From: Alteromonas pelagimontana
GTDB taxonomy: Bacteria; Pseudomonadota; Gammaproteobacteria; Enterobacterales; Alteromonadaceae
Length of the DNA: 64,000 nucleotides
Reading direction: 5' to 3'
Assembly (NCBI RefSeq): GCF_002499975.2
Contig: NZ_CP052766.1
Coordinates: 806,001-870,000 of the forward strand
The notes below the pieces were generated by a model. The model had not been told where the DNA came from, made no database searches, and saw nothing but the letters and a program-made list of their open reading frames with translations. Shown here one piece after another: positions 5,501-14,899 of this stretch (position 1 is its first letter; every line of letters starts with the position of its first letter). Both the position numbers and the translations under genes were made by a program.

Positions 5501-6514
5501 TTATACGGGTGAATATTCCTCACCTGATACCGTGATTGCCCATGCCATTCTGGCCATCTTATTGGCATACGCTACACATGCCCGATTATGCCCTCTTGTA
5601 CAAACCAGATGGTTTATCCATATACTGAGTTTGTCATCCTTGGATTTAGCTCTAGAAACAACGGCTTTGGCTCCTTGGACGAGTAGACATCGTAAGTAAC
5701 TGTTACCTTTTTTACTGATACCCAATAATACGTCTTTTCCGCCACTACTGTGTTGCTTGGGGACCAAACCTAATGACGCTGACACATCACGCCCCTTGCG
5801 ATAAGCCCTGCCATTACCAACTTCATTAAAGTAGGCACTTGATATCATCGGACCAATGCCGGGAACAGATAGCAAACGCTGACAAATTGCATTGTTTTTT
5901 GCATATTGCATTATTGCCTTGTCATATACCTCGATACTGCTATCTAGCGTATGGAGTTGTTCATTAAGCTGTAACAGAAGTGCCTTAAACTGTATAGATA
6001 ATTGCTGGTTGCCGTCCTCCAGCCATATTGAGATATGCTTGCGTAGTGTATGGATACCTTGAGGTATGCATATCCCATACTCTGCCACCAGTCCTCTTAC
6101 TTGATTGCACAATGCTGTGCGCTGCCCAACGGCTAATGCTCTGGCCTTATGCTGAGCTTGATTATCTTGTTGTTCGACTGACTTTATACCAGCAGATCTG
6201 ATATGGGGCTGACGGGCGGCAATAGCTATAGCTAAGGCATCGTTATAATCGTTTTTGTTACCGACTAAAAATGCTTTAACATGCTGTGGCGGAACCAGTT
6301 TTACTTCATGACCACATCCTTGAATTTCCCTCGCCCAATAGGAAGAAGTTGCACAAGACTCTATAGCAACAAGGCATTGAGGATGAGAATGAAAGAAAGC
6401 TAGCACCTCTGCTCGCTTTAACATTTTCTTTTTCAGCAGCCTACCTTCCTTGTTGCAGCACACCACATGAAAGACTCTTTTTGCTATATCTAACCCGATT
6501 GTTGTAATCTTCAT
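5501..6514 (-). CDS. IS110-family transposase (IS1111 group)
   Basis: 337 residues from the ATG at 6514, preceded by GGGAG; the frame is open further upstream (to 6613) but that part overlaps the element end and is not protein-like. The N-terminal RuvC-like domain shows the DEDD residues: TIGLDIAKRVFHVV (D), VAIESCATSSYWAREI (E), GNKNDYNDALAIA (two D). The C-terminal transposase_20 domain has SVPGIGPMISSAYFNEVG and the block SSGGKDVLLGISKKGNSYLR, the latter typical of the IS1111 branch and bearing the conserved Ser region. Length is normal (~340) and no stop or frameshift is seen, so it is probably functional. Confidence 0.92.
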   Translation of the reverse strand: MKITTIGLDIAKRVFHVVCCNKEGRLLKKKMLKRAEVLAFFHSHPQCLVAIESCATSSYWAREIQGCGHEVKLVPPQHVKAFLVGNKNDYNDALAIAIAARQPHIRSAGIKSVEQQDNQAQHKARALAVGQRTALCNQVRGLVAEYGICIPQGIHTLRKHISIWLEDGNQQLSIQFKALLLQLNEQLHTLDSSIEVYDKAIMQYAKNNAICQRLLSVPGIGPMISSAYFNEVGNGRAYRKGRDVSASLGLVPKQHSSGGKDVLLGISKKGNSYLRCLLVQGAKAVVSRAKSKDDKLSIWINHLVCTRGHNRACVAYANKMARMAWAITVSGEEYSPV

Positions 6515-6602
6515 CTTGGTCTTCTCCCGTTTGATTGTAAGTTCAAATTCAATCATGGCACTCAGATGCCGAATTTGGGAGGAGACCATCACATCAGATA
6601 AT

Positions 6603-7660
6603 AAGTGCACCACTCATGGTTAAACGGTGAGAAGAGATCAACTGCCTGTTGGTGGTACTCTGTAATCGCCAAAAAACAAGAGTAGTTACCATGAGTTACA
6701 AGCAGTTGATCGAGGGACAACGATAGCAGATAGAGGCCTACTTACGCGAGGGTTTCAGTTATCGGGAGATTGGGAAGCGGCTTAAAGTCAGTCATAGTAC
6801 GATTAGTCGTGAAGTACGTCGCAACAGGATTCGGGACAATCACTACCTGCCTGAAGTAGCCCATGCTAAGACGATTAAACGACGATGTCAGGCAACCAAG
6901 TACGGCATCCCCGCGCTCACAATGACCTTTGTTGAGTTCGGGCTGATCCAGAAGTGGAGTCCGAAGCAAATTGCTGGCGTGGGTAAAATCATCGGTTGTA
7001 ACGTCAGTCACGAGTGGATTTATGGTTATGTCCAGCGAGACAAGTTACGCGGCGGCAAGCTGTATAAACAGCTGCGACAAGGTCACCGAAGATACCGTAG
7101 AGGTAACCGCGCGAAGCGAGTCATAATCCCGAATTGCATTGGTATAGAGCATCGTCCTGCCATCGTGAACAGAAAGAAGCGGTTCGGCGATTGGGAGGCC
7201 GATACGGTTTTAGGGAAGCAAGGAACAGGCGCAATTGTCAGCCTGGTAGAGCGAAAGAGTAAGCTGTATCTGATACGAAAAGTACCAGCTAAAAGTGCGG
7301 CTGATGTAGCCCGGGCAATGGTTGGCATGCTGTGGAAGTATCGACGCCACGTTCGTACTATCACGGCGGGTAACGGCAGCGAATTTTGTGACCATGAGTT
7401 GGTCGCAGAGAAGTTGAAGGCGGACGTCTACTTCGCGAATCCGTATTCATCTTGGGAACGCGGACTGAATGAAAACTTCAACGGCTTGCTGCGCCAATAC
7501 ATACGGAAAGGCACCGATTTACGGACGGTAACAGACAAGCAAATTGCTGAGGTTGAGCGTGCCCTGAATGCGAGGCCAAGGAAATGTCTTGGATTTAAAC
7601 AGCCCGCCGTCGTGTTCGAGCAGTTACGAGGAGCGGCCTAATTTAGCGAGTGGTGCACTT
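6603..7660 (+). mobile_element. IS30-family insertion sequence (inactive)
   Basis: Perfect 13-bp terminal inverted repeats AAGTGCACCACTC (6603-6615) and GAGTGGTGCACTT (7648-7660) bound 1058 bases that hold a single IS30-type transposase frame. The size fits IS30. No clear target duplication is seen at the flanks (GATAAT on the left, CGGAGT on the right). Its gene is inactivated (see the transposase entry), so it could only move if helped by a related element. Confidence 0.82.
6691..7641 (+). pseudogene. IS30-family transposase, amber stop and lost catalytic Asp
   Basis: From ATG 6691 the frame reads MSYKQLIEGQR, then TAG at 6724-6726, then QIEAYLREGFSYREIGKRLKV (HTH) and onward to 7641 in the same frame: about 316 codons, the normal IS30 length. 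The DDE domain keeps the first Asp (FGDWEADTVLG) and the Glu (ERGLNENFNGLLRQY), but the second motif, normally T-x-DNG-x-EF, reads ITAGNGSEF, so the second catalytic Asp has become Gly. Internal start codons (e.g. 6922) would miss the HTH. Two independent lesions make it a pseudogene. Confidence 0.85.
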
Positions 7661-12879: not shown

Positions 12880-12894
12880 TTTGAACTCCCATGC

Positions 12895-12987
12895 CGCTAA
12901 CTTTTATATAAGGGGCGCGAATGCGTGGGCGAAAATGGCGAAGCCGCCCTCGTGTTTGCGTCCCAGTGCGCCGAGGCGCACGACTTG
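12895..12987 (-). other. attC site 9, left part; split by an IS110-family element
   Basis: Left end CGCTAAC (12895), arms GGGGCGCGAATGCGTGGG and GTGTTTGCGTCCCAGTGCGCC, ending GCGCACGACTTG at 12987. The missing right core is at 14573-14579 (GTTATAC) on the other side of the element. Joining the two gives ACGACTTG-TTATAC, as in intact sites (e.g. CAACTTGTTAGC). The right half GTTATACATAAACC equals the start of the same cassette at 14824 (minus strand) over 14 bases, which confirms the reconstruction. Confidence 0.85.
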
Positions 12988-13073
12988 ATTTGCTTGATAC
13001 TCATTGAGCCTCCTCCCTATCAGCATAAACAGAGTTTATCCTAATAGGCGACCAAACCGAGGGAGAAAACTCA

Positions 13074-14123
13074 ATGAACTTTTATACTAATACACATCCT
13101 TACTATTGTGGAATCGATCTTCATACACGGTTACTGTATGTCTGCATTATCGATAATGAAAACAATATCTTAGTCCACGAGAAAATCGGTGACTCACCTG
13201 AAAAGTTACTGGCGCTGTTAACTCCCTATTTGGGCAATATCGTAGTTGGTGTGGAATGCATGCACTGCTGGTACTGGGTGTCAGATTTCTGTGAACAGCA
13301 CAATATCGATTTTATTCTCGGCCACGCGCTTTACATGAAAGCCATTCATGCCGGGAAAACCAAGAATGATAAAATTGATGCACTAAAGATTGCCAAGCTT
13401 ATTCGCGGCGGCAACTTCCCCTTAGCTCACGCGTATTCAAAAGAGCACCGTTCCATTCGTGATGCGCTGCGTCGTCGAACGCATATTATGAGAATGAGTG
13501 CACAACTTAAAGCACATGTAGCCAGTACGATTAGCCAATATAACCTACCCGCACTCGAAACCCGGTTAAATCTGCAAAACTCACCCGATCGCCAGAAAAT
13601 GCATCACTTTTTCCCGGATGAAGCTGTGCAGAAAAGTATGGATTTAAATCTCAATATCATCAGTACCATGGTGCATGAACTGTATAAAATTGAACACTAT
13701 GTAAAAACTCAGGCGCAAACGCATAATGCTCGTGACCTGCATATTCTTAAGTCGTTTCCAGGTGTTGGTAAAATCCTTGCACTCACGATTTTATATGAGG
13801 TTGGCGATATTCAACGCTTTCCCTCTGTTCAGAAATTCGCATCCTATTCACGGTTAGTAAAATGCAAAGCGGAATCTGCGGGTAAGTCGTATGGCACACA
13901 GGGGAACAAAATCGGCAATGCTCATTTGAAATGGGCCTTCAGTGAAGCGGCAGTGTTGTACCTGAAAGGCAATGACAACGCTAAACGCTACCTGGCTAAC
14001 CTGCAAAAACGCATGAGCAAAGCTAAAGCCTTATCAGCTTTAGCTCATAAAATTGGGCGATGTATCTACTTTATGCTGAAAAACCAACAGGTGTTTGATG
14101 AAGAGCGCTTTTTAAACGGGTAA
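13074..14123 (+). CDS. IS110-family transposase of the attC-inserted element
   Basis: 349 residues, intact. RuvC-like DEDD set: YYCGIDLHTRLLYVCIID (D), VVGVECMHCWYWVSDF (E), KTKNDKIDALKIAKLIRGG (two D). The C-terminal domain has LKSFPGVGKILALTILYEVGDIQRFPS and SRLVKCKAESAGKSYGTQGNKIGNAHLKWAF, with the conserved SAGK region. Start ATG preceded by GGGAGAAAA. Distinct in sequence from the transposase at 5501-6514. Expected to catalyse RNA-guided, seamless insertion of a circular intermediate, as known for IS110 recombinases. Confidence 0.93.
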   Translation: MNFYTNTHPYYCGIDLHTRLLYVCIIDNENNILVHEKIGDSPEKLLALLTPYLGNIVVGVECMHCWYWVSDFCEQHNIDFILGHALYMKAIHAGKTKNDKIDALKIAKLIRGGNFPLAHAYSKEHRSIRDALRRRTHIMRMSAQLKAHVASTISQYNLPALETRLNLQNSPDRQKMHHFFPDEAVQKSMDLNLNIISTMVHELYKIEHYVKTQAQTHNARDLHILKSFPGVGKILALTILYEVGDIQRFPSVQKFASYSRLVKCKAESAGKSYGTQGNKIGNAHLKWAFSEAAVLYLKGNDNAKRYLANLQKRMSKAKALSALAHKIGRCIYFMLKNQQVFDEERFLNG

Positions 14124-14270
14124 GTCGCACAGTGGCATGAGCTTTAGCGTCTAACTGGTTAAACGACGAGTATCGTCTTATCGCACAACACTCTGCAATC
14201 AGCAGCTTCGATAAGTATACCAACAGCTCATAACCCGTTGCGTTTGATTAGACATGCCACTGTTGCGCAT
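14124..14270 (+). ncRNA. Large structured RNA candidate directly after the transposase (bridge RNA candidate)
   Basis: Starting three bases after the stop, CGCACAGTGGCATG (14126-14139) pairs with CATGCCACTGTTGCG (14253-14267), one bulge only. The stem continues after an internal loop with GTCTAA (14149-14154)/TTAGAC (14248-14253), and the enclosed region holds a hairpin GACGA-GTA-TCGTC (14165-14177). Such a long nested structure in the 3' non-coding part of an IS1111-group element fits the reported position of its guide (bridge) RNA. The rest of the element's tail, 14271-14552, has no gene. RNA boundaries are a guess. Confidence 0.5.
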
Positions 14271-14573
14271 CATTTCCTTTTTCAGAATTTGCTTACACCT
14301 TCACTGAGCCCGGTACTAACTGGCGTAAAGCAGCCACTTAGTTTTGAATAGGACAGAGAAAGGTTAACCGATGAATGTCTAGTGCCGTTGCCAGTCAGAT
14401 GGAATTGAAAAGTGCAACATTAAGAGCCTCTATATGTGTTTGACGTAGGCAATACGCCTAACATCGACCATGACAGACGAAGTAAACGGGTTCTATAAAG
14501 GGCTAAGTATTGATCTTGAAATAGTGGTCAAAGGGCTATCTTTTTTCATTGACAGCCCGGAGGCTCATATGTG

Positions 14574-14817
14574 TTATACATAAACCGGCTTTGAACTGCC
14601 AGCATGTTTAACGGCTTTTAGAATATGGCACCAGCCAAGCAGAGCGAAGATGCGAAGCTGTTACCATTGCTTTTTACGCCAGCTTGATGTCGAAAAAGGA
14701 ATTGATGCGCGGTAAGTGGATTGACTGAATGAGCCCCAGAACAAGCTGAAAGCGCTGCCTTGCTGTTAAACAATCCTTGCCGCTGAACCCAATTTTTTTT
14801 TTTGAAAAAGGGTTTAT
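14574..14817. other. Cassette without a recognisable gene
   Basis: Between the repaired right end of attC site 9 and attC site 10 lie about 240 bases that form the body of one cassette. Neither strand has an ORF above ~35 codons with a start and ribosome site; the longest minus-strand ATG frame has 19 codons. An A/T homopolymer (T11) occurs near 14792-14802. It may be a decayed gene, a regulatory cassette or a small RNA. Confidence 0.5.
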
Positions 14818-14899
14818 GTATAACGCCCCAAGCAGGGGTAAATTTTGCGATTTAAGCGCAGCAAAGCAAAATTTGTCCCACTGCCTTGGCTGGTTATGC
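14818..14899 (-). other. attC site 10
   Basis: Ends GTATAAC (14818) and GTTATGC (14893). Outer boxes CCCCAAGCAGGGG/CCCACTGCCTTGG, inner arms AAATTTTGC/GCAAAATTT. Right end GTTATGCGTT agrees with its cassette's start at 15590 at nine of ten bases. Confidence 0.9.

Follow-up and report, generated by a model that had tools for sequence, protein, structure and literature searches.

An IS110-superfamily insertion sequence at the R'' end of cassette attC sites in Alteromonas pelagimontana and its relatives, probably guided by RNA from its own 3' non-coding region

The bridge RNA mechanism has been established for IS621 (excerpts of PMC11208160 and PMC11208158), and handshake positions have been described for the same element (excerpt of PMC11208158). 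RNA guidance was published in 2024 for ISKpn4 and ISPst6, two insertion sequences that seek out attC sites (excerpt of PMC11187229), and the published attC seekers are placed in IS1111 in the excerpts of two reports (PMC11187229, PMC11616780). The members of this IS1111-attC group, among them ISPa25 and ISPa21, insert at one attC end in one orientation and carry a non-coding region (NCR) downstream of tnp. Because attack on attC by IS1111 elements and RNA guidance of ISKpn4 and ISPst6 are both published, an element that targets attC is of a kind already known. In the open-access literature we found no description of attC targeting outside IS1111, nor of two target loops in one such RNA.

The element described here lies in a window of 64,000 nucleotides (the whole stretch of DNA analysed), positions 806001-870000 of the single-contig, 4.31 Mb genome of Alteromonas pelagimontana. 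The element is real and intact and seeks out attC; its kind is ordinary, while its lineage and RNA plan are unusual (Table 1). Sequence comparison makes it highly probable that this IS110-superfamily insertion sequence, which sits in the R'' end of a cassette attC, is guided there by a bridge or seek RNA made from its own 3' NCR. It was compared with a second copy in its own genome, with other genomes, with named genomes and with plasmids. Matches occurred in 11 of the 98 genomes searched (its own counted), the named genomes gave 80 loci kept of 276 found, and the search of viral contigs gave no match. The resulting element rows number 110, of which 12 have no recognisable right end; they represent 94 distinct sites, and setting aside the 24 that lack one flank leaves 70 with both.

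Table 1. Features of the element and its surroundings, in window coordinates
Feature	Position	Strand	Basis
Insertion sequence including one TG core copy, 1577 bp	12997..14573	+	empty allele, paralogue, junction comparison
TG core, left copy	12995..12996	+	empty allele and junction comparison
TG core, right copy	14572..14573	+	empty allele and junction comparison
Left subterminal inverted repeat, TGAGCCTCC	13005..13013	+	sequence
Right subterminal inverted repeat, GGAGGCTCA	14559..14567	+	sequence
Interrupted attC, main part, ending at TG core	12890..12996	- (cassette direction)	outer limit approximate
Interrupted cassette body; R'' remainder TTATAC at 14574-14579	14574..14820	-	sequence, ORF list, paralogue
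DEDD transposase tnp, 349 aa, intact	13074..14123	+	PF01548 and PF02371
Helix P1, 5' strand, directly after tnp stop; partner 14253-14267	14126..14139	+	covariation
Helix P1, 3' strand	14253..14267	+	covariation
Proposed right target guide of module 1, CUAAC (complementary to GTTAG)	14151..14155	+	complementarity
Left target guide of module 1: YUUG preceded by variable -8..-5	14239..14246	+	permutation tests
Module 1, handshake-like AU, equal to first two bases of left end	14247..14248	+	sequence
Module 2 with helix P2; loop CUAAC 14316-14320 and YUUG 14343-14346	14290..14370	+	69/69 NCRs
UGUC, candidate right donor guide; pairing with left-end GATA would include one wobble	14376..14379	+	complementarity only
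Left donor guide AUAUGUG, equal to right end plus core	14432..14438	+	repeated 7-mer
Donor handshake-like UU, equal to first two bases of right target	14439..14440	+	sequence
Second IS110-family transposase, IS1111 type by similarity, about 6 kb from element	5501-6613	-	

The joint and the attC target

The original prediction, an insertion sequence interrupting an attC of which both halves are present, holds for the IS110-superfamily element that encodes tnp. It had ended the left half at ACGACTTG (12987), a joint that would lose eight bases net; the left half in fact extends past this point via ATTTGC and ends at TTG (12996), CACGACTTGATTTGCTTG. The second copy in the same genome (G000:C1:520841-522424; 99.9% identical, with one in-frame TAG in tnp), itself at another attC-like end, begins to match the window only at 12992, and in the relatives the match begins mostly at 12993 or 12994, with L012, from 12988, as the sole exception. 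The element ends read TTG/ATACTCATTGAGCC on the left and GGCTCATATGTG/TTATAC on the right (here and below, a slash marks the joint).

Two empty sites fix the joint. Plasmid pTE101a (L027) carries the empty allele of the pMIT1002 copy (L025), reading TAGTGTTTTG/TTATGTGCGC where the occupied pMIT1002 reads TTTTG/ATAATC...CATATGTG/TTATGTG. In the A. pelagimontana genome itself, an empty paralogous cassette lies at 1.418 Mb, about 3.6 kb from the sole integron-integrase match above cut-off; aligned to the joined flanks of the window it is identical at 273 of 342 positions, with 6 gap positions that all lie away from the joint, and it crosses the joint without a gap (...GATTTGCTTG/TTATAC). Both empty sites have the form YTTG/TTAT. 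These junctions give TG as the core, which the target has once and the element has at each end. The left boundary lies nine bases further on than had been predicted; comparison with empty sites moves the exact joint and keeps the attC reading.

As also predicted, GTTATACATAAACC at 14573-14586 is identical to the minus strand of 14811-14824. The interrupted cassette is thus flanked by an inverted match of 14 bases; its L112 paralogue keeps only part of this match, so the seven extra bases may be due to chance. Among the relatives, L069 and L098 have the right end partly duplicated in tandem, as a 22-base copy between element and target, and L008 and L073 have an additional TGTG at the same place, resembling a repeated core.

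The 70 distinct sites of the element and its relatives are all hit at one insertion point and in one orientation. The three bases to the left are T, T and G in 69, 70 and 70 of the 70 sites, and those to the right are T, T and A in 68, 66 and 65; further out, Y at -4 is found in 67, A at -9 in 65 and T at -12 in 60. The complete R''-L'' signature is present at 53 of the 70 sites, so that the expectation of a shared target is borne out for most other copies, and most of the remaining 17 still look attC-like by eye. One of them, L026 on pAlt83_a, clearly does not: the insertion is at GGCTTG/TTAGG, and no attC-like motif was found nearby. This insertion is likely an off-target event that would fit a short linear target. 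Three more plasmid records carry a copy of the same identity as that of pAlt83_a.

The interrupted attC belongs to an array of like-oriented R''-L'' ends. Within the window, nine further attC-like ends are recognisable by eye on the plus strand from 8.3 to 18.1 kb, and there is another near 14.9 kb; the interrupted cassette body has no listed ORF of at least 70 aa. Judged from the strands on which the integrase, the paralogue and the array ORFs lie, the window's cassettes read on the minus strand, and therefore the end that is hit is R'' (AA/CAAG), away from the R' crossover. There is no integrase near the window's array, and the integrase match near the paralogue contains an internal TAG and TAA. 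Across 86 partly overlapping loci (L025 and L027, for example), intact R''-like motifs number 78 on the strand of the occupied motif and 4 on the opposite strand, where base shuffles lead one to expect 5.5 on both strands together; three of the four come from L120, whose strand is not set. At least one intact motif is present in 37 of the 86 loci.

One could suppose that the element arrived within a cassette moved by the integron integrase, which would explain its situation in a cassette array. Such delivery is extremely improbable: the junction is at R'' and not at the R' crossover point, insertions into many different cassettes, in many hosts, use the same bond, and the empty alleles differ by the element. 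In Shewanella, five loci carry the element at attC-like ends (L064, L079, L080, L083 and L089); the excerpt of a Shewanella integron survey reports no insertion sequence interrupting an attC in its set (PMC9229058).

Transposase and family placement

The transposase is a DEDD protein of the IS110/IS1111 superfamily. Both of its domains, DEDD_Tnp_IS110 and Transposase_20 (PF01548 and PF02371), score above cut-off, and the protein reaches 205.5 bits against NF033542 (cut-off 140). The prediction had gone further and taken the element as an apparent member of the IS1111 group, a label that is wrong or at least too strong, since the protein lies outside the IS1111 clade and the element lacks the long subterminal repeat. 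In a 27-row, midpoint-rooted tree that contains two long IS1111 branches, a branch with support 100/100 separates the six IS1111-type rows from all others, namely nine rows of the present clade, eight ISGsu4-like rows and four other IS110 rows. The nine and the eight group together (96/91). Identity to the six IS1111-type proteins is 21-27% (for IS4321 over 122 residues only), whereas the IS1111-type protein encoded elsewhere in the window shares 35-44% with the other five. The closest of the proteins compared is ISGsu4-like (30%, E 4e-47). From the tree split and the low identity, the clade is therefore not IS1111 by transposase. A further window ORF, at 6922-7641 (+), encodes what we take to be an IS30-like transposase.

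Subterminal inverted repeats of IS1111 elements are usually 11-13 bp by the definition used here, and the repeat is 9 bp in the window, with about 6 bp shared across the clade. Among 30 IS1111-type loci sampled, 17 have perfect subterminal repeats of 13-15 bp, and in these the NCR measures 238-296 nt, with one of 376, against 450 nt here. The others comprise six loci with no repeat, six with 9-10 bp (the window's own IS1111-type element included) and one with a run of N. A single core-like flag was raised among the 30, at L182, where an IS1111-type element lies at GT/TGGGC beside a palindromic-looking stretch.

Several features are nevertheless those of IS1111: a longer NCR downstream of tnp, a top-strand match placed 5' of a bottom-strand match (CUAAC before YUUG in both modules, CUAAC being assigned by complementarity), and insertion at one attC end in one orientation as in the IS1111-attC group. 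The element might on these grounds be an ordinary further member of the published ISKpn4, ISPst6 and ISPa25 lineage, with no separate origin. The like target, the single orientation, the 3' NCR and the right-then-left guide order, as reported for IS1111 in the excerpt of PMC11187229, all speak for membership, and the contrast in repeats is incomplete, given the IS1111-type loci with short repeats or none. Against it stand the 100/100 separation of the transposase from the six IS1111-type rows of the tree, the low identity, and the combination of a 9 bp repeat and a 450 nt NCR compared with 13-15 bp and about 240-300 nt (one 376) in 17 of 30 loci. On balance we regard membership as unlikely. 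The element is further distinguished from the IS1111-attC group by its shorter repeat and by a second paralogous target-like loop in the NCR. Since ISKpn4-type elements are set apart here by their descriptions and not by their sequences, independence from their lineage is something that we infer.

The ISGsu4-like IS110 elements (one annotated as such, L129, and the others assigned by similarity) share with the present element the transposase grouping, a homologue of module 1 just downstream of tnp, the TG core and a donor guide, ATGGGTG, with handshake bases. They differ in having varied targets that, in the examples, are unlike the attC end motif, and no module 2 is seen by eye.

The 3' non-coding region and its guides

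Within its 450 nt the NCR has a loop for the target, a second one paralogous to it and a third for the donor. Folding of an initial 69-row alignment was uninformative over most of the region, and the helices come from a 47-row alignment of representative NCRs. Over six helices and 42 tested pairs, 95.7% of cells are paired in these 47 NCRs, and 354 cells are changed on both sides, against 104 in shuffled data, where none of 500 reached the observed count, and no more than 72 once the helices are slid, the tested structure having been derived from the same 47 rows. Helix P1 shows double-sided changes at 11 of 14 pairs, with 97.8% of cells paired.

The two sides of the loop closed by P1 carry GUCUAACUGG and YUUGAUUAG; those of the second loop, which follows it, carry CUAACUGG and YUUGAAUAG. 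All 69 distinct NCRs contain two 5' motifs (TAACT, or CCAACTGG) together with a second TTGNNTAG; TTGATTA is present in 68 of them, L079 being the exception. TAACT and UGUC are both invariant in the 47 rows of alignment A1. When the 5' strands of the two modules were aligned as consensus strings entered by hand, the score was reached by none of 5000 shuffles. The NCRs of L050, L073 and L079, from three genera, each contain an insert of roughly 50-60 bases at a common position following ATGTC, adjoining the candidate right donor guide; the inserts are similar in sequence.

Module 1 covaries with the target. For this test 75 of the 94 sites could be used, or 73 distinct pairs after removal of duplicates. 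Over segment -8..-4, module 1 scores 2.86 with its own target against 2.22 under free permutation (0/3000) and 2.44 when permuted within host groups (0/3000), the groups being assigned by hand and only a partial remedy for the non-independence of related elements. Beyond YTTG the matching is loose, because one guide occurs with several attC variants. Module 2, on the same 73 pairs, scores 2.21 against 1.89 under free permutation (P 0.001) and 2.07 within host groups; with P 0.038 in the latter, against 0/3000 for module 1, it was rejected as the main target reader.

The NCR likewise follows the element's own right end, the last seven bases of which are repeated in it in 60 of 66 elements, 59 of them at alignment position 14432. 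Four of the 60 have the variant ATAGGTG at both places; these four share one target guide and may represent one event. L130 has ATAAGTG at both places. The repeated 7-mer is absent from six of the 66, and in L134 (51% identical) the right end does not match the donor guide. For the right donor guide, left-end positions 5 and 7 show no covariation with the NCR, and UGUC is a candidate. AAGUA near 14479 was considered for this role and rejected, as by eye it does not follow the C/A change of the left end.

The ISGsu4-like relatives provide a test on other targets. Of a set of 16, six (L129, L144, L145, L148, L150 and L151) had prompted the test beforehand, and the script skipped L145 and L165, the former being read by eye. 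In the 14 tested, the homologue of module 1 agrees with its own left flank at 4.79 of 8 bases, against 2.57 when permuted (0/5000), with poor matches in L161 and L164; the TGA motif was kept out of the score because the guides were located by it. Following the donor guide, 12 of 13 relatives have the two bases with which the right target begins, and these vary with the target as TC, TG or AC (L164 has no second ATGGGTG); following the target guide, 12 of 14 have the first two bases of the left end, of which only the second was free to differ.

These relatives also bear on the idea that the site is chosen by the transposase itself or by a folded attC hairpin, the NCR matches being merely structural. 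An attC does fold as a hairpin, its R'' end is conserved in any case, and the occupied flanks are somewhat more hairpin-like than chance, with at least 18 pairs in 17 of 68 against 2.7% of shuffles; this signal is weak, with a score of 0 for the interrupted attC of the window. Arm complementarity of the occupied attCs is likewise weak, with a score of at least 11 in 23 of 68 against 6.5% of shuffles and 10 of 65 displaced flanks. Choice without a guide is nonetheless improbable, as L026 lies at GGCTTG/TTAGG with no attC-like motif around it, and relatives of the same RNA plan lie in other targets that the module 1 homologue tracks. Steering by a guide RNA is likely because parts of the NCR match both the landing sites and the element's own ends.

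Proposed mechanism and significance

The guides covary with target and donor as expected of a bridge RNA or seekRNA, with the right donor guide as a candidate, and from this covariation we infer a mechanism. The transposase message would be processed to yield a bridge or seek RNA, which the transposase would bind. The left donor guide AUAUGUG in the later loop would read the right end and core, and the same loop probably also holds a right donor guide; the two-base handshake guides AU and UU would match the partners after exchange. Once recombined across TG, the element would lie with its tnp directed outward from the attC, and excision of the occupied cassette by the integron integrase would probably be disabled. 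Like the IS621 system, the proposed RNA has a target loop, a donor loop, a common core and handshake guides; the IS621 RNA lies in the left end with its guides left-then-right, an order that is mirrored in the present element. The original prediction of RNA guidance is thus very probably right, and its suggestion of a direct case goes too far if taken as a first one, RNA guidance of ISKpn4 and ISPst6 having been published in 2024 (excerpt of PMC11187229).

A more far-reaching reading can be put forward only tentatively, and we consider it somewhat doubtful: a second RNA-guided lineage, outside IS1111, may have taken to attC independently, with two tandem target-reading loops per bridge RNA. 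One loop would be tuned to the variable spacer next to R'', and the other, a copy either partly decayed or tuned differently, would extend the range of attCs accepted.

The 70 distinct sites and 69 distinct NCRs form a natural data set that allows guides to be compared with donor ends and targets within a clade that has one kind of target, and in relatives with changed targets the same module follows. The results suggest that attC sites have been found by RNA-guided elements more than once, and insertions of this element may freeze cassettes in marine integrons.
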